DNA from: Steroidobacter gossypii
Lineage (GTDB): Bacteria; Pseudomonadota; Gammaproteobacteria; Steroidobacterales; Steroidobacteraceae
Assembly: GCF_016801985.1 (NCBI RefSeq)
Contig: NZ_JAEVLS010000003.1
Coordinates: 124,001 to 188,000 of the forward strand
DNA length: 64,000 nucleotides
Direction of reading: 5' to 3'
Made by a program: the position numbers and the translations under genes
The notes under the pieces: model-generated
What the model was told of the DNA's origin: nothing
Database searches by the model: none
What the model saw: the letters and a program-made list of their open reading frames with translations, nothing else
Shown: piece by piece, positions 8,995-28,597 of the stretch
Position numbering within the stretch: position 1 is the first letter of the stretch
Layout of the letters: each line of letters begins with the position of its first letter

Positions 8995-9756
8995 TCAGGA
9001 AGGCACCACGAACTGCAGCCGGTCGGCGCGAAAGCAGGTTCTGGCGAAGGTGACCGGCCGATCGCTGTCGCCGATGTCGATGCTCTCGGTTTCCAGCACA
9101 GGTTGCTGGCGCGGCATGCGCAGTTGCGCGGCTTCTTCGGCCGAAGGCAGGCGTGCGCCGATTCTGGTGTGGGAGCGCCGATACGACTCGACGCCGCAGG
9201 CGCTCAGCAGTTCGGTGATCGACAGTGAGCGATGCGGCTGAGCGAGCTGCTCCAGCGCCGCATCGAGCAAGGGCAGGCGTTTGCTGGGGAAATAATTGTG
9301 ACCGAGGCTGAGCGGCACGTCGTCGGCCTCGCCGAGCAGGACCAGCAGGTGACAGGGCGCGCCGACTGCGATCTTCAAGCCTCTGGCAACCGCTTCCGGC
9401 GCTTCGATCTGGGTGACTTGCAGGATTTTCCGGCGCGGATTGCGGCGTTGATCGAGCAGATTCTGAGTGAAGCGCGTCTGTGCGCCGAGCCGATATTCGA
9501 GCAGACCTTCGACCACGAACGTGCCCTTGCCCCATTCGACGCGCACCAGGCCCTCCTGCTCGAGGTGTGCGATCGCCCGGCGCGCGGTGTGCTTGTTGCA
9601 GCCGAAGCGTTGCGCCAGCTCGATATCGGTGGGCACTCGATCGCCTCCCTGCAGCACCTGACGCTCGATGTCGTTGGCGATGGAGTCGCTGATCTGCCGC
9701 CACAACCTGGGGGGGCTGTCTTTCTTGAGTCGGTCGGTCGAAGACATGAGGAGCAT
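8995..9756 (-). CDS. phnF: PhnF-like GntR/HutC transcriptional regulator
   Basis: 253 residues: an N-terminal winged helix (LAQRFGCNKHTARRAIAHLE, about 48-67) followed by a UbiC/HutC ligand domain. The segment YRLGAQTRFTQNLLDQ and RRSHTRIGAR match, from memory, YPLNAQARFSQNLLDQ and RRSQTRISAR of E. coli PhnF, the C-P lyase operon regulator. It heads the leftward phnF / PEPM-like / phnM group and is divergent from the TonB receptor across about 150 bases, so it may control both directions. Start at 9756 or the ATG at 9747; neither has a strong binding site. Confidence 0.85.
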   Translation of the reverse strand: MLLMSSTDRLKKDSPPRLWRQISDSIANDIERQVLQGGDRVPTDIELAQRFGCNKHTARRAIAHLEQEGLVRVEWGKGTFVVEGLLEYRLGAQTRFTQNLLDQRRNPRRKILQVTQIEAPEAVARGLKIAVGAPCHLLVLLGEADDVPLSLGHNYFPSKRLPLLDAALEQLAQPHRSLSITELLSACGVESYRRSHTRIGARLPSAEEAAQLRMPRQQPVLETESIDIGDSDRPVTFARTCFRADRLQFVVPS

Positions 9757-14857: not shown

Positions 14858-15690
14858 GCGTGCGCAGCCTGCCGTGGCCAGCGGCGGTGGCCAGGCATTC
14901 GGTGCTCATCGTGACGGCGGCCCTGATGCTGTTGCCGTTCGTGTGGATGCTGAGCCTGTCCGTGAAGGGGCCGGGCGAGATGTTCCGCTCGGGCTTTGCG
15001 CTGCTGCCTGCACATTTCCACGGGCTCGACAATTACCGTGCCGCGCTTACCGCTGCGCCGCTGCCCAGATTTCTCTTGAACGGGGTGTTGGTGTGTGGAT
15101 CCATCGCGATCCTGCAGTTGCTCCTGTGCGCGCCGTGCGCGTACGCCCTGGCCAAGTTGCAGTTCAAAGGGCGCGGCGCATTGTTCGCTCTGGTGCTGCT
15201 CGGCCTGATCATTCCTCAGCAGGTGCTGGCGCTGCCATTGTTCTTCATCGGCTATCGGCTCGGACTGTTGGACAGCTACGTCGGCCTGATCTTTCCCTTC
15301 GTGATCTCGCCTTTCGGGATCTTCCTGCTGCGCCAGTTCTTTCGGGGCATCCCGGACGACATCGTGCACGCCGCGCGTCTCGATGGTGTGTCCGAGTTGG
15401 GCATCGTCTGGCGCATCATGGCGCCGATGGCGCAGCCGGCAATCATCGCGTTTCTGATCTTTTCGGTGGTCAGCCATTGGAACGATCTGTTCTGGCCGCT
15501 GATCGCGGTGCGCAGCGAGTCGCTGATGCCGCCGGCATTGGGCATCGTGACATTCCGCGATGCTGAGGCCGGCACTGACTACGGACCGCTGATGGCCGGC
15601 GCGGTGCTGGTCGTCGCGCCGCTGGTGCTGGCGTTCCTGCTGGCCCAACGTCGCTTCATCGAGAGTCTTACCCTGGGCGGCGTCAAATAG
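14854..15690 (+). CDS. ABC transporter permease (MalG/UgpE type)
   Basis: 278 residues with six predicted helices and the EAA-type loop (HAARLDGVSELGIVWRI, about 169-185) that docks on the ATPase. Its ATG overlaps the stop of the first permease (ATGA), indicating translational coupling. It forms the importer heterodimer with the preceding gene. The solute-binding lipoprotein is two genes downstream. Confidence 0.9.
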   Translation: MSVRSLPWPAAVARHSVLIVTAALMLLPFVWMLSLSVKGPGEMFRSGFALLPAHFHGLDNYRAALTAAPLPRFLLNGVLVCGSIAILQLLLCAPCAYALAKLQFKGRGALFALVLLGLIIPQQVLALPLFFIGYRLGLLDSYVGLIFPFVISPFGIFLLRQFFRGIPDDIVHAARLDGVSELGIVWRIMAPMAQPAIIAFLIFSVVSHWNDLFWPLIAVRSESLMPPALGIVTFRDAEAGTDYGPLMAGAVLVVAPLVLAFLLAQRRFIESLTLGGVK

Positions 15691-15719: not shown

Positions 15720-16634
15720 ATGAACACAGACAACGGCATCCATGTCATTCCCGCGACTCCCTACATTGGCGCCGACGTTCACAACGTCGATCTGGCGCGT
15801 GTCGTCGATGTCACCGACGTGGCCACCATCGAAGCGTTGCGACTCGCGCTCGATGAGCATCTCGTGCTCCGCTTGCGCGGCCAGCATCTCAGTGCGTCGC
15901 AGATGGAGCGCTTCGGCGCATACTTCGGCGGTTTCGTGAGTCTGAAGCGGCCCGAGCAGCGCGACGCTTTGCATATCCCCGGACTACAGTTCGTGAAGTG
16001 TATTTCCAACGGCGTGACAGCGGACGGTCGGCCGGTCGGAGATGGCAGCGCGAAGCCTCAGGACTGGCACACGGATGGGGCCATGAAGCCGCGCCCGGCG
16101 ACTTATTCGCACTTCTATGCTCGAGTCGTGCCGGCGGATCCGCCGCGCACGTATTGGATGAATATGTATCGGGTCTACGATTCCCTGCCGGCGCAGTGGC
16201 GCGAGGAGATCCAGGATCTCTGGGTGATCCATCATCAGTATTCCGCGGGCAACGAGTTTCCGTTGCCGCCCTCACTGCCGCTGGCGAAGCGGATGGAGGG
16301 ACCGAGACATCCCTTGGTTCGTCGCCATCCGACCAGCGGACGCCCGTTGCTCTACTTGCCGCACCGTGACGACGCCATCGTGGTCGGCAGAGATGAGGCC
16401 GCAAGCCGACAGTTGCTCGCTCGCCTGCGTGACTTCGCAGCCCGCTCGCCGTACTGGTGGTCGGCGGCAATGGAGTTGGATGACTTCGTGATCTGGGACA
16501 ATCGCGCCTGTCTGCATCGTCGCGACGGCTGGGATCCGGCGCGTGAACGCACGCTGTGGCATCTTGCGAACGAAGGGGAGGTTCCCGTGCCGTATTACGC
16601 AGCGTCGGAGCTGGATGTGAAACAAGCTTCCTGA
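15720..16634 (+). CDS. TauD-like Fe(II)/2-oxoglutarate dioxygenase
   Basis: 304 residues of the TauD/TfdA family. The iron ligands are visible: HxD in QDWHTDGAM and the distal His in NRACLHRRD; Arg in ERTLWH probably binds 2-oxoglutarate. Family members hydroxylate taurine, gamma-butyrobetaine, herbicides or phosphonates, often to make a C-S or C-P bond cleavable. Its position between the permease and binding-protein genes of an importer suggests it acts on the imported compound. If the substrate is an alkylphosphonate, the product would be an alpha-hydroxyphosphonate. The substrate is inferred from context only. Confidence 0.85.
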   Translation: MNTDNGIHVIPATPYIGADVHNVDLARVVDVTDVATIEALRLALDEHLVLRLRGQHLSASQMERFGAYFGGFVSLKRPEQRDALHIPGLQFVKCISNGVTADGRPVGDGSAKPQDWHTDGAMKPRPATYSHFYARVVPADPPRTYWMNMYRVYDSLPAQWREEIQDLWVIHHQYSAGNEFPLPPSLPLAKRMEGPRHPLVRRHPTSGRPLLYLPHRDDAIVVGRDEAASRQLLARLRDFAARSPYWWSAAMELDDFVIWDNRACLHRRDGWDPARERTLWHLANEGEVPVPYYAASELDVKQAS

Positions 16635-16641: not shown

Positions 16642-17931
16642 GTGTCGTTGAGCATGCATCGTTCGATTCGAGCAATGGCGCGAGGCTTGCTCGCGGCGCT
16701 CGCGCTCCTGGCGGCCGGTTGCGACCGGCCCGAGTCGGATGCGCTCGTCATCCATGCACAGCCCTATATCAAAGAGGTCTATGCGCAAGTCGTTGCCGAC
16801 TATGGAAGTGCGCATCCGGATGTCAGTGTGCGTTTCGAGCCAGGACCCCGGGACGAGGAGCAGATGGTGCAACAGCTGCTGCGCTCGAGTTTGATAGGTG
16901 CGCCACTGCCCGATGTCGTGATGGTGAGTGGCAACTTCGTGAGATTGCTCGCCGAGCGCGAACTGGCGGTGCCGCTGGGCGCGTTCATCGCAGGTCATCC
17001 GCACTGGCGCACCACGGTGGCAGAGGCAGTCATCGAAGCCGGGCGCTACGGCCGATCCAGCTACGGGCTCGCGTTCGGCTTTTCCGTCCCGGTAGTGCTG
17101 TTCAATAAGCAGCTCGTGCGACGCGCCGGTGCGGACCCCGAGCATCTGCCGACGGATTGGCCACAGATTCTGGCGCTCGCAAAGCGCATCGACGATTCCG
17201 CCGAGGGCGTGGTCGGGGGCTTGCTGGAGTACGACGGGGGCGGCGCTTTCGCTTTTCTTGCGCTGCTCGAGAGTCATGGCGGCACGCTGCTGAGCGGGGA
17301 TGAGCGTGAAGTGGCCGTCGATACAGTCGCCGGACTGCAGGCGCTGGATGTGGTGCGCGGGTTCGGATTGGCCGGGCAGGCGAGAGCAGACATGTCGCGC
17401 GATCAGGCACGTCAGGCGTTCGGCGCCGGCTCGGTCGGAGTCTTCGTCACCATGAGCAGCATGCTGCCGCGTCTCGAACAGGCCGCCGAAGGATATTTCG
17501 AGATCGGTATGGCGCCCTTTCCCATGCAAGCACAGGGCAGATTGCCGACCGCAGGGCCGGTCGCTGTGATGTTGACTCGCGATCCCGCGCGTCAACGCCG
17601 CGTCTTTGCATTGATGTCATATCTCACCAGCGCCGAAGCGCAGATCGCGATGGCGAAGGCGAGTGGCTATGTTCCTGCGAACTCGCTGGCCATCGCACAA
17701 TCGGCTGCCTTGCGCGGACTGCTGGAGGAGCGCAGTTTCTCTGCGGCGGTGCTTGGACGGCTCGACGCGGCGACTCGCTGGTATGCGCCGCCCGGGCCCA
17801 ACGCCATCCGTATCGCGGATCGCATCACGACTCGCATGCAGCAGGTGGTGACTCTCGAACAGGAGCCAGCGGCGGCGCTGCGGCAGCTCGTTGATGAGAT
17901 CCGGCCGCTGTTGCCCGATCCGACGTCCTGA
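16642..17931 (+). CDS. Extracellular solute-binding lipoprotein (CUT1 family)
   Basis: 429 residues. The N-terminus (LLAALALLAAGC) is a lipoprotein signal with a clear lipobox, so the protein is tethered in the periplasm. The two-lobed family-1 binding-protein fold is supported by LPDVVMVSGNF, AFGFSVPVVLFNK, LPTDWPQILALAKRI and FMSYLTSAEAQ-type segments. GTG start at 16642, seven bases after the dioxygenase, with GAGG upstream. It supplies the importer encoded by 12777-15690. It ends nine bases from the end of the convergent phosphonate operon. Confidence 0.9.
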   Translation: MSLSMHRSIRAMARGLLAALALLAAGCDRPESDALVIHAQPYIKEVYAQVVADYGSAHPDVSVRFEPGPRDEEQMVQQLLRSSLIGAPLPDVVMVSGNFVRLLAERELAVPLGAFIAGHPHWRTTVAEAVIEAGRYGRSSYGLAFGFSVPVVLFNKQLVRRAGADPEHLPTDWPQILALAKRIDDSAEGVVGGLLEYDGGGAFAFLALLESHGGTLLSGDEREVAVDTVAGLQALDVVRGFGLAGQARADMSRDQARQAFGAGSVGVFVTMSSMLPRLEQAAEGYFEIGMAPFPMQAQGRLPTAGPVAVMLTRDPARQRRVFALMSYLTSAEAQIAMAKASGYVPANSLAIAQSAALRGLLEERSFSAAVLGRLDAATRWYAPPGPNAIRIADRITTRMQQVVTLEQEPAAALRQLVDEIRPLLPDPTS

Positions 17932-17940
17932 AACCGGCGC

Positions 17941-18753
17941 TCAGTCGGCCGGCTGCCCGGCGATGAATGTTTCATTCACATACGTCATCGTCACCACGCC
18001 TTGCGTGTCGGCGTGACGAGCAAAGATCGACAGCGCCTCCGCCAGCACTGCATCGATGCCGAGGCGCTCGATGGCGGATTGCAAGATGGTAGAGGTGCGC
18101 ACGAGCTGAATCAGATTCTGACGATCGACGCGTGCGTCGATGGGCCAACGCAGCGCCTCCACGTCGGTGAGCTGTGACGCCTCGCGCAGCTCTGTTGCGT
18201 AATCGATGTCTTGATAGCTGCCATCGCGCGCGGTGCGCATTCCCCGTCGATACGTGGGCGCGTGTTTCTCCAGCATCGAGAAGTATTCATCGACGAAGGC
18301 GCTGCGACTGTCGTCGAGACTGTTCTGCACGAGCGCGAGAACTCCGCCCGGCGCGAGCACACGACGGGCTTCAGCATAGAAGCGCGGCCGATCGAAACGC
18401 TGCGCAGCCGCGGCGGCAACCACCAAGCGCGCGGCGCCATCTTCGACCGGAAGTTGCTCCGCCGCACCATCGATGTAACTCACCTTCGCCGCGTCCGGGG
18501 TCGATCGTGCAGCAGTCGCCCGCATGTCGCTGCTGGGCTCGATGGCAAGGATGGGGCCCGCCGGCCGCAGTTCGCGAGCCAGCAGCCGAGTGAAGATTCC
18601 GGTGCCCGCGCCTACTTCGATGACTGCGCCTTGCAGTCGAGGTGACATTCTGCGATTGATCGCCTCGACGCTTTCGCGAGGGTACGGTGGCCGGCAGTCA
18701 TAGTGCTCGGCAATCCCGGTAAAGGCCTTCCAGGCGGTGCTATCGACGGCCAT
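17941..18753 (-). CDS. Class I SAM-dependent methyltransferase
   Basis: 270 residues. SAM-binding motif I is VIEVGAGTGIFTRLLA (about 40-55); the post-I acidic residue is in ILAIEPS, and a motif around LVVAAAAAQRFD follows, as in the UbiE/Tam type. Its ATG overlaps the preceding aminotransferase gene by 14 bases, so it is the last gene of the eleven-gene leftward operon. It may methylate a nitrogen or oxygen of the operon product; the substrate is unknown. Confidence 0.88.
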   Translation of the reverse strand: MAVDSTAWKAFTGIAEHYDCRPPYPRESVEAINRRMSPRLQGAVIEVGAGTGIFTRLLARELRPAGPILAIEPSSDMRATAARSTPDAAKVSYIDGAAEQLPVEDGAARLVVAAAAAQRFDRPRFYAEARRVLAPGGVLALVQNSLDDSRSAFVDEYFSMLEKHAPTYRRGMRTARDGSYQDIDYATELREASQLTDVEALRWPIDARVDRQNLIQLVRTSTILQSAIERLGIDAVLAEALSIFARHADTQGVVTMTYVNETFIAGQPAD

Positions 18754-19867
18754 CGGCGAGCTCCTCGTAAACGTTTCTCAGCACGCGCAGACCCTGCACG
18801 AGTTGCTCGCGATTCGGCGCATCGCCGATCGCGGGCCGCACACCATGCATCGTCGCTGGACCGGAGTTCATCGCATAGAGATCGCTGGCACGCACCGGAA
18901 CACCGGCCTCGAAAGCGGCGCGTTCCAGCTGCGCAGCGCTACGATTGTGAGGCGCCGGCAACCAGAAGTGCAACCCGTAAGAAGATCGGCAGCCGGGAAT
19001 GTTCTGAAACACTTCGCGCACCAATTGCTGGCGCGCGCGTAGCTCGGTGCGATTCGCTTCGAGAATGGCATGAGCGGCGCCGGTCCGGATCCAATCCATC
19101 ACGAGCGTCGCAACCAGGGGCGCGGGATGCCACGTGGAGAGGGTACGGACGCGAGCCAACAAGGCCTGAGCCGCCGTGGACGAAGGCGCCACCATGAAGG
19201 CGGTGCGGATTCCAAGGCTCAGATACTTGGACAGGCCCATCAGATACCAGCTCAGTTCCGGCGCGAAGGTGGCAATCGGCGGCGCGAGGTCCTCGGCATA
19301 CAAGGCCTGAGCTTCGTCCTCGATGATGGCAATTTGATAACGCCGGGCGACCTCGGCGATGTCGCGACGGCGCGAGGCCGGCATGACGGTCGCCGTGGGA
19401 CTTTGAATGGAGGGGTTGCAGTACAAGGCCGTGGGTTTGCGAGGCGAGCGGCAGATGTCTTCGAGCGCGTCGGCGCGCAAGCCGTGCTGATCCATCTCCA
19501 CGCCGACGATGTCGACGTTGAACAGCGAGGCGATGACTTTGACCTGAGGGAATGTATAAGCCTCGGTGGCGAGTCGACCGCCAGGTCCCAACAGCGTCGC
19601 CTGCAACAGCAGCAGGCTGTTCATGGTGCCGTTGGTGACGATGATTCGATCGGGCGAGGGCTCCTGGCCCAAACGTGGCGACAACCAGCGGGCGGCGAGC
19701 GCTTTGTCGTCGGCGGTGCCGTCGAAGCGATGCTGTCGAAACAGTTCGGCGTGACCGTCACAAGCGGCCGTGAGCTTGTGTAGCGCTTCGCGGACGCCGG
19801 CGCCGAGAATGCCGAGCGGCGGCGGCGTCGCACGAAGAAATCCAATGGGAGTCCGGGCGTCGCTCAT
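18740..19867 (-). CDS. Fold-type I PLP aminotransferase, MocR-like without a DNA-binding domain
   Basis: 375 residues resembling the aminotransferase half of MocR/PdxR or 2-aminoadipate aminotransferase proteins. Visible PLP features: NGTMNSLLLL, YCNPSIQSPT (Asn-Pro loop), IIEDEAQ (Asp binding the pyridine) and GLSKYLSLGIRTAF (Schiff-base Lys and phosphate Arg). There is no winged helix, so it is an enzyme rather than a regulator. It is the second PLP aminotransferase of the operon, one base after the NIPSNAP gene, and may transaminate a late intermediate. Confidence 0.85.
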   Translation of the reverse strand: MSDARTPIGFLRATPPPLGILGAGVREALHKLTAACDGHAELFRQHRFDGTADDKALAARWLSPRLGQEPSPDRIIVTNGTMNSLLLLQATLLGPGGRLATEAYTFPQVKVIASLFNVDIVGVEMDQHGLRADALEDICRSPRKPTALYCNPSIQSPTATVMPASRRRDIAEVARRYQIAIIEDEAQALYAEDLAPPIATFAPELSWYLMGLSKYLSLGIRTAFMVAPSSTAAQALLARVRTLSTWHPAPLVATLVMDWIRTGAAHAILEANRTELRARQQLVREVFQNIPGCRSSYGLHFWLPAPHNRSAAQLERAAFEAGVPVRASDLYAMNSGPATMHGVRPAIGDAPNREQLVQGLRVLRNVYEELADGRR

Positions 19868-19868
19868 A

Positions 19869-20195
19869 TCAAGGGCTCGGCGAGAACGCGGTGGGCTTGA
19901 GCAGAGTATTGCTGACCCGCTGAACCAACGGACCGTCGCTCTCCGTCTCGTGCCGGACGGCCAGCCATTCCGGGTCGGCCTGGAATGCGCCCCAGCGTTG
20001 CTCGCGCTCGGCCATCGACGCCCAGCGCAGCAGATAGATCAGGTTCTGGCTGGATTCGCCGATCACCACGGTCCAGAAGCCCACCGGTTCGATGCCATGC
20101 TTGCGAAACATGTGCAACGTGGTGGCTTCCATCCGTTTGAGCACCAGCGGCAGCTTGCCCGGTACGCAGTGATAGGTCCTGAGCTCGTAGATCAT
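19869..20195 (-). CDS. NIPSNAP-family small protein
   Basis: 108 residues beginning MIYELRTYHCVPGKLP, the typical NIPSNAP opening, and continuing with GFWTVVIGE and LIYLLRWAS, which fit the dimeric ferredoxin-like fold. Start at the ATG at 20195, which overlaps the upstream stop as ATGA. NIPSNAP proteins recur in catabolic and biosynthetic clusters, often next to oxidoreductases, but their chemistry is poorly defined. Confidence 0.85.
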   Translation of the reverse strand: MIYELRTYHCVPGKLPLVLKRMEATTLHMFRKHGIEPVGFWTVVIGESSQNLIYLLRWASMAEREQRWGAFQADPEWLAVRHETESDGPLVQRVSNTLLKPTAFSPSP

Positions 20196-21298
20196 AGCGA
20201 CGCCTCCGCGGCGACCGTGGTTGCGGCGAAACGTTCGGGTCGATACGGGGCGAGTTGTTTGACCGGATCGCCCAGAATTTCCTGGCTGGCCAGCCTGCCG
20301 AGATAACAACCCAACGTCATGCCACTGTGGCAGGTGAGCACATACGCCCTCGGCTGCCGATGAAGCCAGCCGAGCACTGGCAAGCCATCCTCGGGCACCG
20401 GCCGCGCGCCAATCAGGACCGCGTGTGGCGGCATGTTTCGCAGGGCGGGCAAGCGGCGGCTCAGTTGCTCCGCGATGAGCTGCGCCTCCATTCCGGGAGT
20501 GCAACCTGGAGGAAACTCGCCACCATGGTGGCCCGCCATGATCCTGCCGGCGCCGTCCGGCCGGAAATGCAGATGGCCGGCATAGCAGGTGTGAGTCAGC
20601 CTGCTGGGCAGGTAGTGCGATACAAACAAGGTGCCCGGGTCGGATCTCACTGTAAGTTGCGTGCCGAGGATCGCCGCCAACGAGCCGGTATCTACGCCGG
20701 CGGCCAGCACTACGACATCACCATCGATCGGCCCATGATCCGTGCGCACAGTGACCGAACTGGCGCGCGTTTCGAGCCCGGTGACTCGCGTGCATCGCCA
20801 TGAAAACCCGCTGCGCGCCTGAGCCGCAGCCAGCAATCCGCCAACGAACGGCGCTCCATCCATCCAGCCTTCGTTGGGAATGCGGACGATGTCACGGGCG
20901 ATGCCGTCGACATTCAGATCGGGTTCGAGGTGACGCCGCACGTCGGCGGGCGAGAAGAACTCCACGGCGACGCCGCGCTCGATCAGCGCATTGACGCTGC
21001 GATTGAGCTTGTCCCAGCTGTCCGGCGTTTCGCCCCAGCGCAGGGTGCCTTGCAGGTGCAGCCATTGCGACACACCGAGCTGCGCGGCAAGCTCGCGCGT
21101 GTAATCGATCGAGTTGCGCCGAAGCGTGAAGTACGGTTCGTGCCAATAGTTGAAATAGTTGATGCAGGCGAAGGTGGTCGAGGAGGCAAGGGCGGCGGGG
21201 CCGATGCGATCGATGGCCGTGACCTTGACGCCTCGCTCGAGCAGATGATGCGAGACAGACAGGCCGAGTATGCCGGCGCCGACGACGATGACGTGCAT
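20192..21298 (-). CDS. FAD-dependent amine/D-amino-acid oxidoreductase (DAO family)
   Basis: 368 residues. The N-terminal dinucleotide motif is VVGAGILGLSVSHHLLERG. Further DAO features are DVVVLAAGVDTG in the middle and RPVPEDGLPVLGWL with TCHSGMTLGCYLG near the C-terminus. The family oxidises secondary or primary amines (glycine, sarcosine, D-amino acids, aminophosphonates). In this operon it may oxidise an aminophosphonate or N-methylated intermediate. It follows the SDR gene by 36 bases and couples to the NIPSNAP gene. Confidence 0.88.
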   Translation of the reverse strand: MHVIVVGAGILGLSVSHHLLERGVKVTAIDRIGPAALASSTTFACINYFNYWHEPYFTLRRNSIDYTRELAAQLGVSQWLHLQGTLRWGETPDSWDKLNRSVNALIERGVAVEFFSPADVRRHLEPDLNVDGIARDIVRIPNEGWMDGAPFVGGLLAAAQARSGFSWRCTRVTGLETRASSVTVRTDHGPIDGDVVVLAAGVDTGSLAAILGTQLTVRSDPGTLFVSHYLPSRLTHTCYAGHLHFRPDGAGRIMAGHHGGEFPPGCTPGMEAQLIAEQLSRRLPALRNMPPHAVLIGARPVPEDGLPVLGWLHRQPRAYVLTCHSGMTLGCYLGRLASQEILGDPVKQLAPYRPERFAATTVAAEASL

Positions 21299-21334
21299 GG
21301 CAAGTCCTTTTGAGCATGAGTCGTTTGCGGGAAT

Positions 21335-22105
21335 TCAACGGCAGCATGTCAGGCCGCCGTCGAGATACAGGGTTTGTCCAGTGATGTAGTCCGCGCCGGA
21401 GGAGCAAAGGAACAGCGCAGCTTGCGCGACATCTTCAGGCAGCGCGAGACGCCCCAGCGGAATCGGTTGCACCCAGCGCTGCAAGGTGGCCAGGTCGCCG
21501 GTTTGCGCCGCGTTTTTGGCGGTGCTGACGATGCCCGGTGCGATGCCATTCACGCGAATGCCCAGCGGCCCAAGCTCGGCCGCGTGTTGACGGACCAGCG
21601 CAGCGAGTCCGCCTTTGGCGCTGGCGAACGATGAATAGCCGCGCTCGAGATAGCCGAGGATGGAGCGCAGCGACAACAAATGGATGTGCCGCCCGCGGCG
21701 GCGCTCGGCCTGATGTGAAGCCACCGACTGGGCCAGAAACATCGCGGCCTTCAGCTGAGTGCCGACCACCAGGTCGAACGCCTCTTCAGTGACTTCCAGC
21801 AGGCGCTGCTCGCGCTGCGCGCCGAGACAATTGATGAGGAAGTCGATGCCGTTGCAGCGGGCGTCCACTTCGGCCACGACAGATCGGATCTCGGACACGT
21901 TTCGCACATCCAGCTCGGCGGCGGAGGCGCGTGCGCCGGAACTGCAGAGCCGTTCTGCAAGAGATTCGGCATGTTCCAGCCGACGGCCCGCGATCACAAC
22001 GTGACAACCAGAGCGAGCGAAAGCGGTGGCGATGGCGCTGCCAAGCGCGCCGTAGCCGCCAACGATCAAGGCCGCGCAACCGTTCAGATCGACTGACAGG
22101 GTCAT
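21335..22105 (-). CDS. Short-chain dehydrogenase/reductase with Phe at the catalytic Tyr position
   Basis: 256 residues. The cofactor motif is VGGYGALGSAIATAFARSG (about 15-33) and the C-terminal LYLDGGLTCCR is typical of classical SDRs. The active site is unusual: the YxxxK pair reads F160-ASA-K164 (from GYSSFASAKGG), and the usual NNAG reads NCLG. The codon is TTC. It may be a non-catalytic or rewired member, or a nearby Tyr157 may substitute. Start at 22105 with AGGAG nine bases upstream. Sixth gene after the PEP mutase. Confidence 0.88.
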   Translation of the reverse strand: MTLSVDLNGCAALIVGGYGALGSAIATAFARSGCHVVIAGRRLEHAESLAERLCSSGARASAAELDVRNVSEIRSVVAEVDARCNGIDFLINCLGAQREQRLLEVTEEAFDLVVGTQLKAAMFLAQSVASHQAERRRGRHIHLLSLRSILGYLERGYSSFASAKGGLAALVRQHAAELGPLGIRVNGIAPGIVSTAKNAAQTGDLATLQRWVQPIPLGRLALPEDVAQAALFLCSSGADYITGQTLYLDGGLTCCR

Positions 22106-22118
22106 GGAGATCTCCTGC

Positions 22119-23045
22119 TCAATGCGTGCCCGGTGGGGCAACGGAAGATGTCCCGGCGGTGGCCCGGCTGCCGATCCAGGCCGCGCAGAGAATCATCGCG
22201 CCGCCCAGCAAAGTGGCGGCGCCGATCGTCTCGTTGAACACGAGCACGCCGGCGATGGTGGCGAAGATCAAGCGCAGATACTCCAGCGCCGCAGCCTGCT
22301 GTAGCCGCAAGGTGCCGAACGCGGCTGCAGCCGCGGCCTGACCGAGCACGAGCAGAGCCGCCGCCACGAAGATGCCTGCGAGCGCTGTGTGCGAAGGCCA
22401 CTCCCAGACTTTCAACGCCGGCAATGCCGCGAGCGGAATGGCCGGGGCGAGTCGCAGGAGCGCCGAAAGCGTCGGCGTCTCACGCCCACGGAGCATTCGG
22501 AGTTGAGTGATCGTCAGCGCGGCCAGCGCCGCTGCAAGCAGCGCGGCGGCCACGCCGTCGACGCGGACCTCGCCAGCGGTGGGTCGCAGCACGATGAGGA
22601 CTCCGCATAGTCCTACCGCGAGCGCAAGCCAACTGCGGCGCTGAAATGGCTCTTTCAATAGCCACCAGGCGTACAGTCCGGCGAACAGTCCGGTGGTGAA
22701 GAACAGGCTCGTCGCCATCGCCAGCGGCAGAGCGATCATCGCGTACAGCCACGCCATGGAAGCCAGGTAGCTGACGCCGCCGCACACTGCGTAACGCAGC
22801 AGGCGCGACCGGTCTGTCATCGGCTGATAACGACCCGGGCGCAAGCGTCGATCGGCCGCGACCCACGGAGTGACGAGCACGGCGGCGAACAGCAGGCGAA
22901 GAAACAATGCCTCGGGCGGACTGAGCGCGATAGCGGCGGTGCGCAGCAGAACGTGCGACACAGTGGAGAACATCATCTCACCGACAATGCAGCTGATCGC
23001 CACCACCTGTGCAGAGCGCGCTGCCACTCTAAAGGAGTTTTCCAT
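22119..23045 (-). CDS. EamA/DMT-family transporter
   Basis: 308 residues with about ten hydrophobic helices in two EamA repeats, e.g. AMIALPLAMATSLFFTTGLF and GVLVFNETIGAATLLGGAMI. The family exports amino acids and other small metabolites. Its ATG shares a base with the stop of the preceding gene (TGATG). Inside a biosynthetic operon it is the natural candidate exporter for the product or for a toxic intermediate. Confidence 0.9.
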   Translation of the reverse strand: MENSFRVAARSAQVVAISCIVGEMMFSTVSHVLLRTAAIALSPPEALFLRLLFAAVLVTPWVAADRRLRPGRYQPMTDRSRLLRYAVCGGVSYLASMAWLYAMIALPLAMATSLFFTTGLFAGLYAWWLLKEPFQRRSWLALAVGLCGVLIVLRPTAGEVRVDGVAAALLAAALAALTITQLRMLRGRETPTLSALLRLAPAIPLAALPALKVWEWPSHTALAGIFVAAALLVLGQAAAAAAFGTLRLQQAAALEYLRLIFATIAGVLVFNETIGAATLLGGAMILCAAWIGSRATAGTSSVAPPGTH

Positions 23046-24559
23046 CACGAGGCGCTCGGCGTGAGACGTTGGGCGCGCCACTGCGCTGTGCCGAACTGGC
23101 GCTGGAACACCGGGCCGGCGTGTTCATCGGAGGCGGCGCCCAGATGCACAGTGCCGGTCAAGTCGAGATCGCTCGAGCGGCCCAGGAACTCGTAGTACAG
23201 AGGCAAGCTGCCCTGCGGATGTTTCGCGATCAAGCGACAATGCTCGCCGGCGACCGAGCCCGTGAGCTCGCCTTCTGAGAATCGCGAGATGTGTGTTCCG
23301 GTCACGTTCCGACCGCGCTGTTCGAGGATCAATCGATGTTCGGCGCGACCGTGCAGGAAGGTGAGTCGCACCAACCAAGTTCCCGACAGATCGACCGTCG
23401 GCGCAGGGTCGTCTGCGACCGGCGTTCGGGCGAGCATGGAGAGCGCTCGTTGAAGGGTCTTGCAAACCAGCCGAGCCTCGGCGTCTGTGAGATTGATCGG
23501 ATCGATGACGATCGAAAACCGCCCACACCAGAAGTCGTGAATGAGAATGCGCGGTCGACTCTCGAGCAGCATGGCTCGCAGCGCGCCGCTGTCGTGAGGA
23601 ATCACTGAGGAATCCCATTCGACGCGAACCCGCGGCGCGGTGACAAACGGCGTATCGGGGATGAGCGTCATCGTGAGCGCCGGTGTGCCGGCGAGCTCGC
23701 GGCAGATTAACTCCGCGCGCTGCCGCCATTGCGAGCGTTCCTCGCGGGCGGTATCCGAGTTCAGCCATCGATCGAGCGCGACCACCGCGCCCACCATTTC
23801 TTCCTTGCCCACCTTCATGGTCCGGCCGATCGCTTGATGCGGGGCGCTGTTGCGCCAGATGGCCTCGCACAGCCGTCTGTCTCCGAGCACAATGCCGGTG
23901 GAGTGGGGCGCTCTCAGATATTTCCCGCCCGAGTACACGACGAGATTCGCTCCGGCGGTCAGCCATCGATCGGGTCGGGCCGGCGAAAGCCCGGCAGCAT
24001 CCACCAGCACCGGCACTTCACGAGTGCGCGCGAGGGCCGCAATCTCTTCAAGTGATGGATTGGAGCCACGTCGCGCCAGCAAGCAGATGAGTACGACGCT
24101 GCCGTCGAGCAGAGACGCCAGATGTTGCAGATCGCGAGCGGTCACGATCTCGGCGCCTACGGATGACAGCGCGTGATCGTAGTCGAAGCGCTGCTGCTCG
24201 AGCATGGCCACCCGATGGGCGAGACCCGCCGTGCGCGGCAAGCGCAACATGTACTCGGGATTGTTTCCTGCGATACAGGCGGCAGCGGCCAGGGCGAGCG
24301 CCGCGGTCGTGCCGGATGTGACGACGCCCCAGGGTGCATCGGTCAGCTCATGCAGCCGCTGCCCGATGCCTTCGGCGAGCTCATCGAGGTCGACGAACTG
24401 CTCTGAGGCCGCCGCCATCGCGGCCAGCACTTCGGGCGCGGGATTGGCGCCGCCCCATTGAGTCCGTACGCCGCCGCAGTTGATGAGCGGCTCGACCCGC
24501 AGTTTTCTGAACACGTCGAGCGCGTCCGTCGGCGCCGCCTCCAACCGGGCGGCGCTCAT
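23045..24559 (-). CDS. SelA-like PLP enzyme with a C-terminal beta-rich extension
   Basis: 504 residues. Residues 1-380 resemble the SelA/D-glucosaminate-6-phosphate ammonia-lyase group: LINCGGVRTQWGGANPAPEV, VVTSGTTAALALAAAA, VDAAG (Asp187) and YSGGKYLRAPHSTGIVLG (Schiff-base Lys213). These enzymes act on Cbeta of an amino acid or remove ammonia. Residues 390-504 form an added region starting DLSGTWLVRL with alternating hydrophobic strands, reminiscent of small lipocalin-like barrels. It is unlikely to make selenocysteyl-tRNA here. Its ATG overlaps the upstream gene by four bases. A role on an aminophosphonate is inferred from the operon. Confidence 0.82.
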   Translation of the reverse strand: MSAARLEAAPTDALDVFRKLRVEPLINCGGVRTQWGGANPAPEVLAAMAAASEQFVDLDELAEGIGQRLHELTDAPWGVVTSGTTAALALAAAACIAGNNPEYMLRLPRTAGLAHRVAMLEQQRFDYDHALSSVGAEIVTARDLQHLASLLDGSVVLICLLARRGSNPSLEEIAALARTREVPVLVDAAGLSPARPDRWLTAGANLVVYSGGKYLRAPHSTGIVLGDRRLCEAIWRNSAPHQAIGRTMKVGKEEMVGAVVALDRWLNSDTAREERSQWRQRAELICRELAGTPALTMTLIPDTPFVTAPRVRVEWDSSVIPHDSGALRAMLLESRPRILIHDFWCGRFSIVIDPINLTDAEARLVCKTLQRALSMLARTPVADDPAPTVDLSGTWLVRLTFLHGRAEHRLILEQRGRNVTGTHISRFSEGELTGSVAGEHCRLIAKHPQGSLPLYYEFLGRSSDLDLTGTVHLGAASDEHAGPVFQRQFGTAQWRAQRLTPSAS

Positions 24560-25182
24560 TGCATTCCTCGAATGAACAGCGCCACCGAGGATGCAACCGT
24601 AAAGGCGATGATGCCGCCAAGGTAGACGCCGCGCGCTTTGGGCACCAGCAGCGACGAAACATGTAACACCGCCAGCAGCAGCAACGAGCTGTTCACCAGC
24701 GCTTGGAACAGCTGCGCTTCGAGCCATGGTCGAAACAGGAACAGCAGCGCCAGTGCAGGCAGATCGTATGAAAGCGGCACGCCGGTGAAGTGCTGGCCGC
24801 CGGAGAGACCAAAGGTGTTGAAGTAGCTCAGGCGCAGGGCGCCCGCCAGCAGCAACAGCCCCGCCAGCCCGAGCGACAGCAGCGAAGCGCCGTTCAACTG
24901 CAACACCAGCATCGCCGGGAACACCGAATCCGAGATCAGATCGGTGAACGAGTCGAGTTGCTTGCCGATCGCGCCGGCGTTCTGCCGGCGATTGCGGGTG
25001 CGCGCGGCGACGATCCCGTCCACGTGATCGGCGATCAGCGCCCAAAGCGCCGCGGCGAGCGCAACCTCGAGCTGTCCGATGTGGACGTAGTACAGCGCCA
25101 ACAGGGCGAAACACAATCCTACCGCGGTGATGGCGTTGGCCGGGTCGCGCAAATAGCTGACCATCAGCGTTTGCGATCTCAT
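24556..25182 (-). CDS. CDP-alcohol phosphotransferase (membrane)
   Basis: 208 residues with several membrane helices. The family active-site motif is present near residues 51-82 as DHVDG-x3-AR-x11-G-x3-D-x3-D. The spacing is longer than the usual DG-x2-AR-x8-G, so the site is atypical, but all the Asp residues are kept. The family displaces CMP from a CDP- or CMP-activated group onto an alcohol, as in phospholipid headgroup synthesis. With the nucleotidyltransferase just upstream (4-base overlap), it may attach a CMP-activated phosphonate to a lipid alcohol to make a phosphonolipid. Confidence 0.88.
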   Translation of the reverse strand: MRSQTLMVSYLRDPANAITAVGLCFALLALYYVHIGQLEVALAAALWALIADHVDGIVAARTRNRRQNAGAIGKQLDSFTDLISDSVFPAMLVLQLNGASLLSLGLAGLLLLAGALRLSYFNTFGLSGGQHFTGVPLSYDLPALALLFLFRPWLEAQLFQALVNSSLLLLAVLHVSSLLVPKARGVYLGGIIAFTVASSVALFIRGMQ

Positions 25183-25976
25183 GCGAACCGCTCCGCCAAC
25201 TGGCCTTCTGGCGCAGGCTGCTCCGGCGCGAAAATGCGCTCGGCGATGCGCAGATCCTCGACGCTGTCGATTTCGAACCAGTTCAGATCGCCACAGTCGA
25301 CTGCCCCGAGCTGCAGCCCTTGTGGACGTATCAATGCGCTGAGGATCTGCTCCACGTAAGCGCCGTGCGCGCCGCCGACGATCGTCCGGTCGAGTTCCGG
25401 GAGCAGCTGCGACTGGAGCGTCTCGGCGGTGAAGCGATAGATGTTGATGGTCTTGTACAGGGGCTCGACGAGCGCGTCGGACATTTTCTGATTCAAGCGC
25501 AGCTCGCGGGCGCGACCTCGTTCATCGAGCGTTGCCGCCGAGCCGGTGAGCAGCGGCGACATCGGTGCAACCGCGCCAGCATCGGGATGTTCCGAGCGCA
25601 GCAGACGTGTCAGCACAGCCCTCTCGAAGAACACATCGCCTTCCAGCAGCAGGCAGCTGCCGGCCGCGAGAAAATCCCGAGCCAGCCACATTGAGTAAGC
25701 GCTGCCAGTGCGTTCGAAAACATCGGAGCGCACGTAGCTCAGGCGCATACCCCTGAAATGATCGCCGTACACGCCTTCCACCGCATCGCTGCGATATCCC
25801 ACCACAATGGCGGTCTCACGAACGCCGCAGCTGGCGAGCTGGCGTAGCGCATTCTCCAGAATGGCGACGCCATGAACCTTGATCAGTGTCTTGGGAACGT
25901 CGGCGGTCAATGGGCGCAAGCGGGTGCCGAGTCCGGCCGCTAGAATGAGTGCGCGATGGGTGCCTGTGGTTGGCAT
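25179..25976 (-). CDS. CTP-type nucleotidyltransferase (PntC/LicC-like)
   Basis: 265 residues of the NTP_transferase fold: signature LILAAGLGTRLRPLTADVPK, VVGYRSD, LLLEGDVFFE (metal Asp) and WFEIDSVEDL near the C-terminus. The closest pattern is the LicC/PntC class, which couples CTP to phosphocholine or 2-aminoethylphosphonate. Nucleotidyltransferases of this kind often sit beside PEP mutase genes and activate the phosphonate as a CMP derivative. It overlaps the CDP-alcohol phosphotransferase by four bases, so the two steps are probably coupled. Confidence 0.88.
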   Translation of the reverse strand: MPTTGTHRALILAAGLGTRLRPLTADVPKTLIKVHGVAILENALRQLASCGVRETAIVVGYRSDAVEGVYGDHFRGMRLSYVRSDVFERTGSAYSMWLARDFLAAGSCLLLEGDVFFERAVLTRLLRSEHPDAGAVAPMSPLLTGSAATLDERGRARELRLNQKMSDALVEPLYKTINIYRFTAETLQSQLLPELDRTIVGGAHGAYVEQILSALIRPQGLQLGAVDCGDLNWFEIDSVEDLRIAERIFAPEQPAPEGQLAERFA

Positions 25977-26008
25977 GGGTGCGTCCTTGCTCCAGTTGTT
26001 GAGAGTTG

Positions 26009-27199
26009 CTAACGGATGGAGTTCAGCTCGCGAACCAGTCGGGGCAAGCCGCTGCGAAGCTGTTCCGCGGATACGCCATATGAGAGTCGCAAGCCGGCGG
26101 GATCGCCGAACGCCACACCAGATACCCCAGCTACGCCGGCTCGCGTGATCAGGCGCGCCGCCACGTCGTCTGCGGTTCGCAACGACTCATCCGCGCCGAT
26201 GGGCGCAAGCAGATTGGAAAGATCCAGATAGAAATAAAAGCCTCCCTGAGCGTTGGGATCCGGCACGCGCTCCAGCTCGGCAAGGATCGTGAGACCCTCG
26301 TGTCTGGCTCTGAGCAGTTGCTCGCGCAGATCCGCCACGAAATGGCCGCTGCCGCTGCGCAGATGCTCCAGCACCGCATGTTGCGCGATCACGTTGGGAT
26401 TGGAGGTCGTGTGACTCTGCAAGGCGCGCACGGCCTTGATCAGTGGTGCAGGTCCGGCCATGTAGCCGATGCGCCATCCCGTGATGGCCAGTTGTTTGGA
26501 AAAGGCGTTGACGATCACCAGTCGCGAGCGCAACTCGGGTGCGAGACCGACGATGGAATGGTGGATGTGCGGCGCGTGCGTCAGCTCTCCGTAGCATTCG
26601 TCGAAGATCACCCAGAGCTGGTTTTCGATCGCGAATTGCGCGATCGCGAGCAGGCACTCGCGTGAGTAAACCGCGCCGGTCGGATTGTTGGGGGTGTTGA
26701 TGATGATGGCGCGAGTCGCCGGGCTCGACGCATCGCGCAGTGCCTGGATGCTGGGCAGATATTGAGTCCGCCGGGTGTCGACGAACACAGGCTTGGCGCC
26801 CGCCATGGTCACCTGGGCAGGGAAGGTCGACCAGTACGGCATCGGGATCAGCACTTCATCGCCGGGATTCAGCAATGTCATGGCGGCGTTGAACAGCGCC
26901 TGCTTGGCGCCGGCGGTGACCGCGATCTCATCGGCGCTCCAGATCTGCCAGGTTTCGCTGGTGAGCTTGGCCGCGATCGCTTCACGCAATTCCGGCATGC
27001 CGATCGTGTCGGAATAGCGCGTCACGCCTTGCTCGAGGGCGTTGAGGGCGCCTCTATAAAGTGTCGGGGCGAGATCGGCGCTGACTTCGCCGGCGCTCAG
27101 ATCGAGAACGGTGGTGCCCGCGGCGGCAGCCGCCTTGGCGGCTGAGCGCGCCGCCGCCGTACCGGAATTGCCAAACGACTGCATCCGTTGTGCAAGCAT
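26009..27199 (-). CDS. Class I (aspartate-type) aminotransferase
   Basis: 396 residues of PLP fold type I. Visible: NTPNNPTGAVYS (Asn near 172), FDECYGEL (Asp200, Tyr203), Schiff-base Lys235 in NAFSKQLAITGWRIGY and Arg243. It follows the PEP mutase by about 33 bases. The expected job is amination of phosphonopyruvate to phosphonoalanine, as aspartate-type aminotransferases can do, since no decarboxylase gene that would give phosphonoacetaldehyde is present. It does not look like the class V AEP transaminase PhnW. Substrate is inferred. Confidence 0.85.
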   Translation of the reverse strand: MLAQRMQSFGNSGTAAARSAAKAAAAAGTTVLDLSAGEVSADLAPTLYRGALNALEQGVTRYSDTIGMPELREAIAAKLTSETWQIWSADEIAVTAGAKQALFNAAMTLLNPGDEVLIPMPYWSTFPAQVTMAGAKPVFVDTRRTQYLPSIQALRDASSPATRAIIINTPNNPTGAVYSRECLLAIAQFAIENQLWVIFDECYGELTHAPHIHHSIVGLAPELRSRLVIVNAFSKQLAITGWRIGYMAGPAPLIKAVRALQSHTTSNPNVIAQHAVLEHLRSGSGHFVADLREQLLRARHEGLTILAELERVPDPNAQGGFYFYLDLSNLLAPIGADESLRTADDVAARLITRAGVAGVSGVAFGDPAGLRLSYGVSAEQLRSGLPRLVRELNSIR

Positions 27200-27232
27200 G
27201 TGAGTGCTCTCCGAAGCCGTAGATGAGTTGTC

Positions 27233-28159
27233 TCAGGCCGAAGCCGATGTTTCTGGGAGGTAGCGGCCTTCGGCATTGGCCAGCTCGTCGTAGCGCATCA
27301 GCTTGAATACTTCTTCGAGGGTGGCGACATCCGGCTCGATCCCGGCGACGCTCTCCTCCGACAGGATTCGCCGGCACACTTGCCCCATGGCGCGAACCGA
27401 GGCGCGCATCGCATGATTCGCCCAGATGACGGTGGAGATCGATGCCTGCCGATAGGCGGCGACCGGGGTCCGATAATATTTGGTGGGAACGATGATCAGC
27501 GGCAGGCGATTCTTCCAGGCCCGGGCGAAGGACAGGACTTCGTCCGCCGTTCCCTTGCGGGAATGGATCAGGATTGCATCCGCGCCGGCTTCCGCATACG
27601 CATGCGCTCGTGACAGCGCCTCTTGCTCGTCGTAACCGGCAATCAGCGCTTCAGTGCGCGCAATCAAGCAGAATCTGTGCTCGGGAACCGTGTCTTTGAC
27701 CGCTCGCAGTCGACCGGAAAATTCCTTGACGTCGGCCAGCGGATGCTTGTCGCCGACGAACGAATTGAGCTTCGGGAAGCCCTTGTCCTCCAGACAGATG
27801 CCGGAGGCGCCGCGTTGATAAAGCTTGAGCGCCGCGAGGCGGGCGTTGTTGAAGTTGCCGAAGCCGCTATCGCCGTCGACCAGAATGGGAATGTGGGTCA
27901 CATCCGCCATGCGCTCGACCACTTCGACCACCTGGGTCCATGACGCTTCGTTCGCATCCCGGTAGCCGAGACTCGAAGCGATCGACAGGCCCGACGCCCA
28001 CAGCCCGGGGAAGCCACTCTCTTCGGCAATCGCCGCCGACAGTGCGTCGTGCGCTTCCATCAGAAAGGTCAGTTCCGGAGAGTGTAGTAACTGGTGTAAC
28101 GCACTCGACGTTGCGGTTGAGAAATCCTGGGTGTGTACGCGAGTGGTTTCAACGCTCAT
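27233..28159 (-). CDS. pepM: Phosphoenolpyruvate mutase (canonical)
   Basis: 308 residues. PEP mutase converts phosphoenolpyruvate to phosphonopyruvate and is the entry to almost all natural phosphonates. Seen here: FLMEAHDALSA, WASGLSIASSLGYRDANE (Asp68), DGDSGFGN (Asp95/Asp97), the gating loop EDKGFPKLNSF with Lys130 and the mutase-type Asn132, ARTEALIAG, VPTKYYRTP and ANHAMRAS. Start at the ATG at 28159 with GGAGAG upstream; a TTG at 28183 lacks support. It heads the eleven-gene leftward operon. Compare the paralogue at 7946-8899, which has Thr at the Asn position. Confidence 0.92.
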   Translation of the reverse strand: MSVETTRVHTQDFSTATSSALHQLLHSPELTFLMEAHDALSAAIAEESGFPGLWASGLSIASSLGYRDANEASWTQVVEVVERMADVTHIPILVDGDSGFGNFNNARLAALKLYQRGASGICLEDKGFPKLNSFVGDKHPLADVKEFSGRLRAVKDTVPEHRFCLIARTEALIAGYDEQEALSRAHAYAEAGADAILIHSRKGTADEVLSFARAWKNRLPLIIVPTKYYRTPVAAYRQASISTVIWANHAMRASVRAMGQVCRRILSEESVAGIEPDVATLEEVFKLMRYDELANAEGRYLPETSASA

Positions 28160-28597
28160 CGATGCTCTCCGTTGCTTGCTCAAGTGACGACGTCCGTTCG
28201 GCGTGGGGATTGTTTGTATTGCGTCGTCGTAAGCAGCGTCAACGGATTGCGCACCCGCTTTGTTACAACTGATGAACCTTATATTTCAGCCGAAAGATCC
28301 CAGCGTCGATGGCCGGTCGAGAAGCAGGCGAATGTGACAATCAGATAACGGACAGATAACGCTCTGGGCGGCGAACACTGCAGCGCGCCTAGCGTTCGCG
28401 CCGTCGGTGAGGTCTCGGATGGGCGCTCGCGCGGAGCGGCGCGGTTATATCGGCCGCAGTCGCGTCCGGTACATCGGGTGGCCCGGGGCGCGGTGCGTTC
28501 GAACGAGTTGGGTGTCAGTCGTGGGAAGTTGACATCGGCTCGACTGGCGAGCCTTTCGATGACTGGGATGAAACGCTCGGACCAGACAGGTGACTTG
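28160..28597. other. Non-coding region with the promoter of the PEP mutase operon
   Basis: 438 bases between the PEP mutase start and the end of the MFS gene, both leftward. No convincing gene is seen on either strand. On the minus strand there is a promoter-like pair (28214-28242) and, upstream of it, a TTGTAACAA near-palindrome (28262-28270). The remainder, 28350-28597, is GC-rich and featureless; no terminator with a T-run was found for either direction. Confidence 0.5.
28214..28242 (-). promoter_or_regulatory. Candidate sigma-70 promoter for the PEP mutase operon
   Basis: Reading leftward, TTGACG (28242-28237) and ATACAA (28219-28214) are separated by 17 bases. Transcription would start near 28207, about 48 bases ahead of the ATG at 28159. 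The -35 is near consensus, the -10 weaker. No other promoter-like pair of this quality was noticed before the operon. Confidence 0.45.

Follow-up and report, generated by a model that had tools for sequence, protein, structure and literature searches.

The 64,000-nucleotide window examined here (Steroidobacter gossypii, NCBI RefSeq assembly GCF_016801985.1, contig NZ_JAEVLS010000003.1, positions 124,001 to 188,000) carries an eleven-gene operon headed by the gene for a phosphoenolpyruvate (PEP) mutase, PepM. This operon is a conserved gene set, more than chance would assemble, and it probably builds a phosphonoalanine-derived phosphonate without a decarboxylase step. On balance, we lean toward a product that is a phosphonoalanine-derived phosphonate ester and that is synthesized, exported and taken up again. 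The sequence supports the gene families and their conserved linkage; the reactions, their order after activation with cytidine monophosphate (CMP) and the cycle of export and re-import are our proposal. The genes, from first to last, are as follows.

27233..28159, minus strand: PepM, phosphoenolpyruvate mutase, 308 residues from ATG 28159
26009..27199, minus strand: AT1, aspartate-type aminotransferase, proposed phosphonopyruvate aminotransferase (Aminotran_1_2)
25179..25976, minus strand: NTPT, LicC/PntC-like nucleotidyltransferase (PF00483/PF12804)
24556..25182, minus strand: CDPOH, CDP-alcohol phosphotransferase (PF01066, 29.6 bits, above the cut-off of 22)
23045..24559, minus strand: SelA/DgaE-like pyridoxal phosphate (PLP) enzyme with a C-terminal beta-strand domain (TIGR01437, 136 bits, below the cut-off of 385)
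22119..23045, minus strand: EamA-family transporter, proposed exporter (PF00892, 72 bits)
21335..22105, minus strand: SDR oxidoreductase (adh_short_C2, 4.4e-53)
20192..21298, minus strand: DAO-type FAD oxidoreductase (PF01266, 142 bits)
19869..20195, minus strand: NIPSNAP protein (PF07978, 98 bits)
18740..19867, minus strand: MocR/EhuR-like aminotransferase domain without the DNA-binding part, MocR-AT (EhuR model, 261.6 bits, cut-off 480)
17941..18753, minus strand: class I S-adenosylmethionine-dependent methyltransferase, MT (Methyltransf_11, 60 bits)

In the proposed pathway, PepM would convert PEP to phosphonopyruvate and AT1 would trap this compound as L-phosphonoalanine, so that transamination, in place of phosphonopyruvate decarboxylase (Ppd), would draw the uphill mutase reaction forward. 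NTPT would activate the phosphonate as a CMP adduct, from which the phosphatidylserine-synthase-like CDPOH may transfer it to an alcohol. Production or trimming of the partner moiety is predicted for the methyltransferase and the SelA-like, SDR, FAD and MocR-AT enzymes, and export of the product for EamA. Convergent genes for a TonB-dependent receptor, a Ugp-like importer and TauD, together with divergent genes for PhnF, a phosphonopyruvate hydrolase (PPH)-like enzyme and PhnM, are the candidate for a matching uptake and salvage module.

Operon enzymes and the absent decarboxylase

The eleven open reading frames are intact and all lie on the minus strand, where they run leftward from PepM (28159) to MT (17941), with every junction between −14 and +36 bases. 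With the best-judged starts, the successive junctions from PepM to MT are +33, +32, −4, −4, −1, +13, +36, −4, +1 and −14. The initial annotation, made from the sequence alone, had described an eleven-gene leftward run with gaps below 37 bases, and this description is borne out, the largest gap being 36. Six overlaps had been counted; five are present with the best-judged starts and the sixth exists only if SDR begins at TTG 22141. The start of pepM, which had been placed at 28242, is probably ATG 28159 behind GGAGAGC, or else TTG 28183. Scans for promoters and terminators gave site numbers no higher than in shuffled sequences. The GC fraction is 0.61–0.65 throughout, and the composition carries no hint of foreign origin.

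PepM has the family score and motif of a biosynthetic PEP mutase. It scores 341 bits against TIGR02320 (cut-off 319.55) and 206 bits against the hydrolase model TIGR02321 (cut-off 374.4), and its top PDB match is the mussel PEP mutase 1m1b (E 2.6e-99). Its motif reads EDKGFPKLNS, and the mutase-type Asn named in the initial annotation is indeed residue 132, counted from ATG 28159. The initial annotation had also noted the lack of a decarboxylase, and neither the operon nor a search of the whole 7.1-Mb assembly (97.63% complete, 32 contigs) gave a match over the TIGR03297 cut-off of 312.5 bits. The assembly search returned four matches, the best of 38 bits, and weak matches of this kind also appear in 13 of 14 control genomes. 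The missing Ppd is no puzzle by itself, because a Ppd-free route through an aspartate-type phosphonopyruvate aminotransferase, PnaA, has already been described (in the available part of PMC11867202).

AT1 shares 57–63% identity with the PepM-linked copies of five other genomes and 34% with the closest paralogue in its own genome. When 44 AT1 sequences and 14 paralogues are aligned, Lys235, Arg371, Asn172, Asp200 and Tyr203 are common to both groups. AT1 proteins conserve Ala17, Arg18, Thr125 and Phe126, which most or all of the 14 paralogues lack, and the GEPDFDTP stretch of the paralogues is replaced in AT1, among the rows of the alignment listed. The shared residues are presumably catalytic, and the AT1-specific positions are presumed to line the side-chain pocket. 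The pattern agrees with AT1 being an aspartate-type enzyme whose side-chain pocket is altered. AT1 is, as the PnaA type requires, a member of the aspartate aminotransferase family linked to pepM; PnaA itself is described as an enzyme of this family that uses aspartate as the donor and is able to drive PepM (PMC11867202, in part). In Mesorhizobium waimense (locus L056, 3092–5269), PepM and AT1 lie in a single 725-residue frame with PepM-like pieces downstream; loss of a stop codon, and not a designed fusion, may explain this frame.

For NTPT, the best PDB match is the CTP:phosphocholine cytidylyltransferase LicC (1jyk, 52.8 bits), and the Treponema denticola PntC-AEPT structure 6pd1 ranks fifth of 35. 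Precedents for CMP-phosphonates are provided by PntC and FrbH (described in part of PMC6697681). The sequence suggested to the first annotator amination to phosphonoalanine followed by CMP activation, and the presence of an aspartate-type aminotransferase and a cytidylyltransferase-like enzyme beside PepM is consistent with that order of events.

CDPOH has the four Asp residues expected of a CDP-alcohol phosphotransferase, whose signature we take to be DxxDG...GxxxDxxxD with an Arg in the DGxxAR part. All four signature Asp residues are present, and D52, D55, G56, G73, D77 and D81 are invariant in 36 sequences. The copy in the window reads DGIVAAR, one residue longer than DGxxAR, and its relatives vary here. 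The predicted structure (predicted local distance difference test score, pLDDT, 95.4) has the phosphatidylserine synthase 7pow as its best Foldseek match (E 6.8e-7, 24% identity).

In the SelA-like enzyme, Lys213 of the SGGK/AGGK motif is invariant in seven sequences. Its model (pLDDT 74.6) matches DgaE (7lc0) and Cap15 (8t7j), and the phmmer matches to these proteins stop at residues 366 and 371, respectively. Beyond them lies a C-terminal domain of eight strands (393–501). Within the window's order, a search with this enzyme at E ≤ 1e-20 found 10 of 296 genomes, of which the nine other than the window's share at most 33% identity. At the class level (E ≤ 1e-60), the window stands alone among 369 genomes, and the SelA-like searches in order and class found no further operon. 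As a separate observation, the SelA/DgaE-like genes of those nine genomes (L006–L016, family f7; at most 33% identity to the window's) are mostly tandem pairs. As for the remaining enzymes, MocR-AT aligns to positions 113–451 of the 458-position EhuR profile, and the top PDB match of the FAD oxidoreductase is 7fgp, a glycine/D-amino acid oxidase.

Conservation in Rhizobiales and proposed transfer

To place the operon among its relatives, GTDB genomes were scanned with PepM, which yielded 183 relatives; the best 80 were kept, and these loci (numbered with L) are nearly all from Rhizobiales, with 64–76% identity. Partner genes were counted with chosen bit thresholds within at most 10 kb on either side, several loci being shorter; the 80 include close kin and are not independent. 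AT1 is present in 45 loci, Ppd in 12, both in one, NTPT in 61 and CDPOH in 57. Less common are the CobD-like gene c5 (17), MocR-AT (27), SelA-like (7), MT (11), SDR (11) and MalG (11), followed by the FAD enzyme (2) and EamA (2); NIPSNAP and TauD were counted in none. Two Ppd-like tallies each reach 12 of 80 and differ in L084 versus L038, so that their union is 13.

AT1 and Ppd are nearly exclusive of one another (Fisher p 3e-4, kinship ignored). NTPT accompanies 44 of the 45 AT1 loci and none of the 11 Ppd-only loci; it occurs with neither gene in 17 loci, and seven loci have none of the five tallied genes. Because the aminotransferase and the decarboxylase so rarely occur together within one PepM family, they offer a simple way to predict the phosphonate branch from sequence. 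The 45 AT1 loci come from 44 genomes; searched whole, two of these (those of L091 and L096) have a Ppd over the cut-off. Because each of these strains has a second, PepM-Ppd locus (L026 and L022, respectively) and a single over-cut-off Ppd match in its genome, that match is taken to be the Ppd of the second locus. A 294-bit Ppd-like gene lies within the cluster of L063, and 13 further AT1 genomes have weaker matches of at most 146 bits.

The synteny search proposed with the initial annotation found PepM, AT1, NTPT and CDPOH consecutive on one strand and in the window's order in 32 of the 80 loci (counted by eye). Eight of the eleven genes (PepM, AT1, NTPT, CDPOH, SelA-like, SDR, FAD and MocR-AT), again in the window's order, are found in two Bradyrhizobium genomes, B. 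valentinum (L091/L159) and G874 (L158), with 39–72% identity to the window's proteins (SDR 49–50%, FAD 39–40%, MocR-AT 47%). An additional methyltransferase lies between CDPOH and the SelA-like gene in L159. A search with the B. valentinum FAD enzyme at E ≤ 1e-60 matched 2 of 265 Bradyrhizobium genomes.

A different Bradyrhizobium PepM operon was also seen (L022, L023, L025, L026, L030, L034 and L052, and in part L029 and L031), with genes for PepM, a methyltransferase-like protein, Ppd (model-checked), an EamA-like protein and an aldehyde-dehydrogenase-like protein. A PepM-Ppd cluster in a Bradyrhizobium has been described (PMC10708946, available in part). Among the 81 PepMs (80 loci and the window), the residues at the motif are EDK in 42, EDS in 30 and EDT in 8, with the mutase Asn in all 80 of these; L069 falls outside the pattern, with QDS at the motif place. 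The motif Lys is lost in about half of the 81, the L077 (M. loti) type among them.

In the PepM tree, the PepM of the window is nested within the clade that the 80 form and stands apart from 22 PepMs of its own class, Gammaproteobacteria (branch 100). Within that class, 25 of 369 genomes have a PepM at E ≤ 1e-50; the 24 besides the window's share 40–58% identity with it and lie mostly in frames of about 500–840 residues. None of the 13 other genomes of the genus examined has a PepM at this threshold. Because of the tree placement and the absence in kin, transfer into the window's lineage is proposed.

The AT1 gene is also carried by plasmids. Relatives at E ≤ 1e-90 include 51 plasmid records, 37 of them typed conjugative and all from Sinorhizobium, Agrobacterium, Rhizobium, Mesorhizobium or Bradyrhizobium; pepM lies beside the AT1 copy in 30 of 30 such records compared by eye, among the matches listed (30 of the 51 records for AT1 and 60 of 81 for PepM). 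The cluster is near nifQ and rpoN in Mesorhizobium sp. 131-3-5, and S. chiapasense has PepM, AT1 and NTPT in the vicinity of nodD2 and of a carbon–phosphorus (C-P) lyase operon with PhnF and PhnM. On the Agrobacterium plasmid pAt2 (L153), the core is followed by genes annotated as ornithine cyclodeaminase, alanine racemase and cysteine synthase family, a set reminiscent of diaminopropionate synthesis.

In M. loti R7A, pepM::lacZ and aatA::lacZ are strongly expressed in nodules and hardly expressed in a nifA2 mutant (PMC3538637, in the part available). The same source judges direct activation by NifA highly unlikely and reports that pepM and aatA insertion mutants are fully effective. Because the same neighbourhood is found in L077 and L163, we infer that this R7A pair (msi327/326) represents the PepM and AT1 of the rhizobial family. 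The R7A locus numbers allow two genes between aatA and asnB, not three, unlike the L077/L163 neighbourhood. Phosphonoalanine-based compounds are predicted for many symbiotic and plant-associated bacteria, and the strong nodule expression in print for one pepM-aminotransferase pair raises the question of phosphonates in legume nodules and of their users. A broader idea, which we regard as improbable, is that of an opine-like private phosphorus currency. Plant-associated bacteria would export a phosphonoalanine ester that bacteria with the linked module could import and degrade; rhizobia would produce the ester in nodules in a NifA2-dependent way (probably indirectly), and the system would spread on symbiosis islands and conjugative plasmids, with the window representing a transfer to another bacterial class.

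Candidate uptake module and alternative fates of the phosphonate

A module overlooked in the initial annotation (6784–17931) adjoins the operon tail to tail. Its importer, TauD and receptor genes converge on the operon, and the PhnF, PPH-like and PhnM genes diverge from the receptor gene.

16642..17931, plus strand: solute-binding protein of an ATP-binding cassette (ABC) importer (SBP_bac_8), convergent with the operon and 9 bases from it
15720..16634, plus strand: TauD/TfdA-family oxygenase (PF02668, 155 bits)
13952..15690, plus strand: two ABC permeases, UgpA/MalF-like and UgpE/MalG-like (UgpA 135 and UgpE 119 bits, under cut-off)
12777..13955, plus strand: UgpC-like ABC ATPase (UgpC model, 385 bits, cut-off 432)
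9909..12767, plus strand: TonB-dependent receptor (Plug domain)
8995..9756, minus strand: PhnF, GntR-type phosphonate regulator (TIGR02325, 213 bits, above 156.8)
7946..8899, minus strand: PPH-like PEP-mutase-family enzyme, perhaps a phosphonopyruvate hydrolase (Thr motif)
6784..7854, minus strand: PhnM, RPnTP diphosphatase family (NF011984, 425.6 bits, above 260)

The PPH-like motif reads EDKSGSKRTS, with a hydrolase-type Thr where mutases carry Asn. The closest PDB chain is the hydrolase 2dua, by a small margin (147 bits versus 144 and 130 for two mutases). A clearer case is found on a plasmid of Mesorhizobium (M. huakuii), where genes for an AAT-type aminotransferase and a Thr-type PPH lie beyond an importer of this kind; the PPH scores 354 bits with the hydrolase model (cut-off 374.4) and 268.6 with the mutase model. 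Near the importer of Mesorhizobium sp. AR10 (L161, 26731–27408), a gene is annotated as a glycerophosphodiester phosphodiesterase, which would suit an ester substrate; it had no NCBIfam match at E ≤ 1e-10.

Several observations weigh against the favoured pathway of phosphonoalanine ester synthesis, export and re-uptake. In the biosynthetic part, the top NCBIfam matches of NTPT, under cut-off, are sugar-type enzymes, and another phosphonate could be its substrate; CDPOH is nearest to a lipid-making fold; 35 of the 80 loci are without AT1 within reach; and EamA, NIPSNAP and the last methyltransferase have no match in the two closest (Bradyrhizobium) operons. The window's nearest PepM in the tree, that of L078 (76%, support 80), adjoins a Ppd-like gene, and on the PepM tree the AT1 label needs 15 changes (shuffled mean 33.6) and the Ppd label 4; partner genes were therefore exchanged more than once. 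In the module, the PPH-like enzyme scores higher with the mutase model (286.8 bits, cut-off 319.55) than with the hydrolase model TIGR02321 (154.7 bits, cut-off 374.4) and passes neither. The solute-binding protein lies upstream of pepM, not convergent with it, in 2 of the 15 loci that have one. Among the matches listed for 85 rhizobial stretches, TauD and the TonB receptor have none and PhnM has one (L019), so the salvage pairing is partly local.

These module observations bear on the view, to which we give somewhat less than an even chance, that the uptake genes, together with those for PhnF, the PPH-like enzyme and PhnM, are a phosphonate scavenging island that has nothing to do with the operon and adjoins it by chance. 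The missing rhizobial matches and the PPH-like scores below both cut-offs favour it, and since PhnJ had no match in the window's own genome, PhnM may serve something else. Against a chance neighbourhood, 13 of the 80 loci have a relative of the solute-binding protein downstream of pepM and in convergent orientation. Thr-type PEP-mutase-family genes were seen in L066, L093 and L160 (of 89 stretches, with a motif search that demands K, R or Q at the Lys place and may miss some), and in S. chiapasense the core genes have the C-P lyase operon that includes PhnF and PhnM nearby.

For the fate of the phosphonate, the main alternative, possible if doubtful, is a phosphonolipid operon in which CDPOH puts CMP-phosphonoalanine on diacylglycerol or a similar lipid to give a phosphono analogue of phosphatidylserine. 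The best structural match of CDPOH, a phosphatidylserine synthase, agrees with this, as do its NCBIfam matches (archaetidylserine synthase and PssA, all below cut-off) and the annotation of one rhizobial copy as a phosphatidylcholine/phosphatidylserine synthase; a prediction that most such clusters lead to surface glycans or lipids is cited in the available part of PMC6697681. A soluble compound is instead suggested by the recurrent importer. In addition, the EamA transporter of the window and the major facilitator superfamily transporters of two relatives lie within or at the ends of the operons, and the four additional redox and PLP enzymes have no obvious place in making a lipid head group. 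Transfer to a lipid, raised in the initial annotation, is therefore kept as one of two readings, with the phosphatidylserine-synthase-like fold in its favour and the recurrence of a Ugp-like importer beside such operons against it.

Rather unlikely is a route in which phosphonoalanine is an intermediate and a later PLP enzyme decarboxylates it before or after CMP tagging, the candidates being c5 in relatives and the SelA/Cap15-like enzyme in the window and the product 2-aminoethylphosphonate (AEP) or a phosphonoacetamide. The CobD-like c5 matches a threonine-phosphate decarboxylase model, below cut-off. In L077, a 569-residue protein (16564–18273) has a c5 C-terminal half and, judged by eye, a nucleotidyltransferase-like N-terminal half, a layout that we take to resemble FrbH. 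FrbH has a PLP decarboxylase half. It cytidylylates an amino-phosphonobutyrate, according to the part of its description available. The SelA-like model of the window matches Cap15, titled oxygen- and PLP-dependent and, we assume, a carboxamide-forming decarboxylase; however, the ammonia lyase DgaE matches it equally well, and c5 was not seen among the genes of the window operon.

A catabolic operon with PepM and AT1 misread, akin to PalA-PalB breakdown of phosphonoalanine (PalA being closely homologous to PepM, with PalB as the aminotransferase, in the available part of PMC8154272), is very improbable and was dropped because of the mutase-type Asn, the TIGR02320 score over cut-off with the hydrolase model far below, and the linkage to a nucleotidyltransferase and a CDP-alcohol transferase; another family member, of the Thr type, moreover lies 9 kb past the operon's far end.

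Relation to known systems

Two elements of the favoured phosphonoalanine ester pathway are known in print, namely entry through phosphonoalanine (the PnaA branch) and CMP activation (the Pnt and FR-900098 pathways). In the open-licence PubMed Central literature, no description was found that combines the phosphonoalanine/CMP route with a phosphatidylserine-synthase-like transferase in a gene family of rhizobia that adjoins a salvage-like module, nor were phosphonoalanine and a nucleotidyltransferase found together. Judged by title and abstract start among the matches listed, a rhizobial PepM-aminotransferase cluster was not found treated as a pathway. The remark in the initial annotation of knowing no described pathway with this gene set agrees, for the combination, with these searches; it needs amending in that the Ppd-free PnaA entry is known and that the gene family is mainly one of Rhizobiales.

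The pepM (msi327) and aatA (msi326) genes on the symbiosis island of M. loti R7A are a neighbouring pair, as in L077 and L163; in the available part of PMC3538637 the pair is not treated as a phosphonate pathway, and the word phosphonate is absent from the main text. PalA-PalB degradation resembles the window in the Thr-type PEP-mutase-family gene of its module and, in M. huakuii, in the AAT-type aminotransferase beside the PPH gene (PMC8154272, in part). The module of the window differs in that it shows no PalB-like gene and has PhnF, PhnM, TonB/ABC and TauD genes, with the PPH-like gene divergent. The survey of palAB breakdown clusters excluded palAB-ppd cases (PMC8154272, as far as available). 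In our view, pairs of PepM and AT1 that lack ppd may have entered that survey as palAB.

In the phosphonoalamide pathway, PnaD (a PepM) and PnaA likewise combine a PepM with an aspartate-aminotransferase-family enzyme that converts phosphonopyruvate to phosphonoalanine without decarboxylation (PMC11867202, in part), PnaA being compared here by description. That pathway continues with two ATP-grasp ligases (PnaB and PnaC), whereas the window operon has a nucleotidyltransferase and a CDP-alcohol transferase, and no ATP-grasp family is among the Pfam matches of its eleven proteins. Pnt clusters with PntC likewise pair PepM with a LicC-like nucleotidyltransferase; the characterized PntCs activate AEP made by Ppd and AEPT (PMC6697681, in part), whereas in the window Ppd is absent and the aminotransferase is aspartate-type. 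Finally, lichen Nostoc and Burkholderia have PepM-Ppd-NTPT-CDP-alcohol transferase clusters with the same CDP-alcohol phosphatidyltransferase and NTP transferase beside pepM, interpreted as phosphonolipid synthesis in the available part of PMC5987646; unlike the window operon, these clusters hold Ppd and an AEP aminotransferase.

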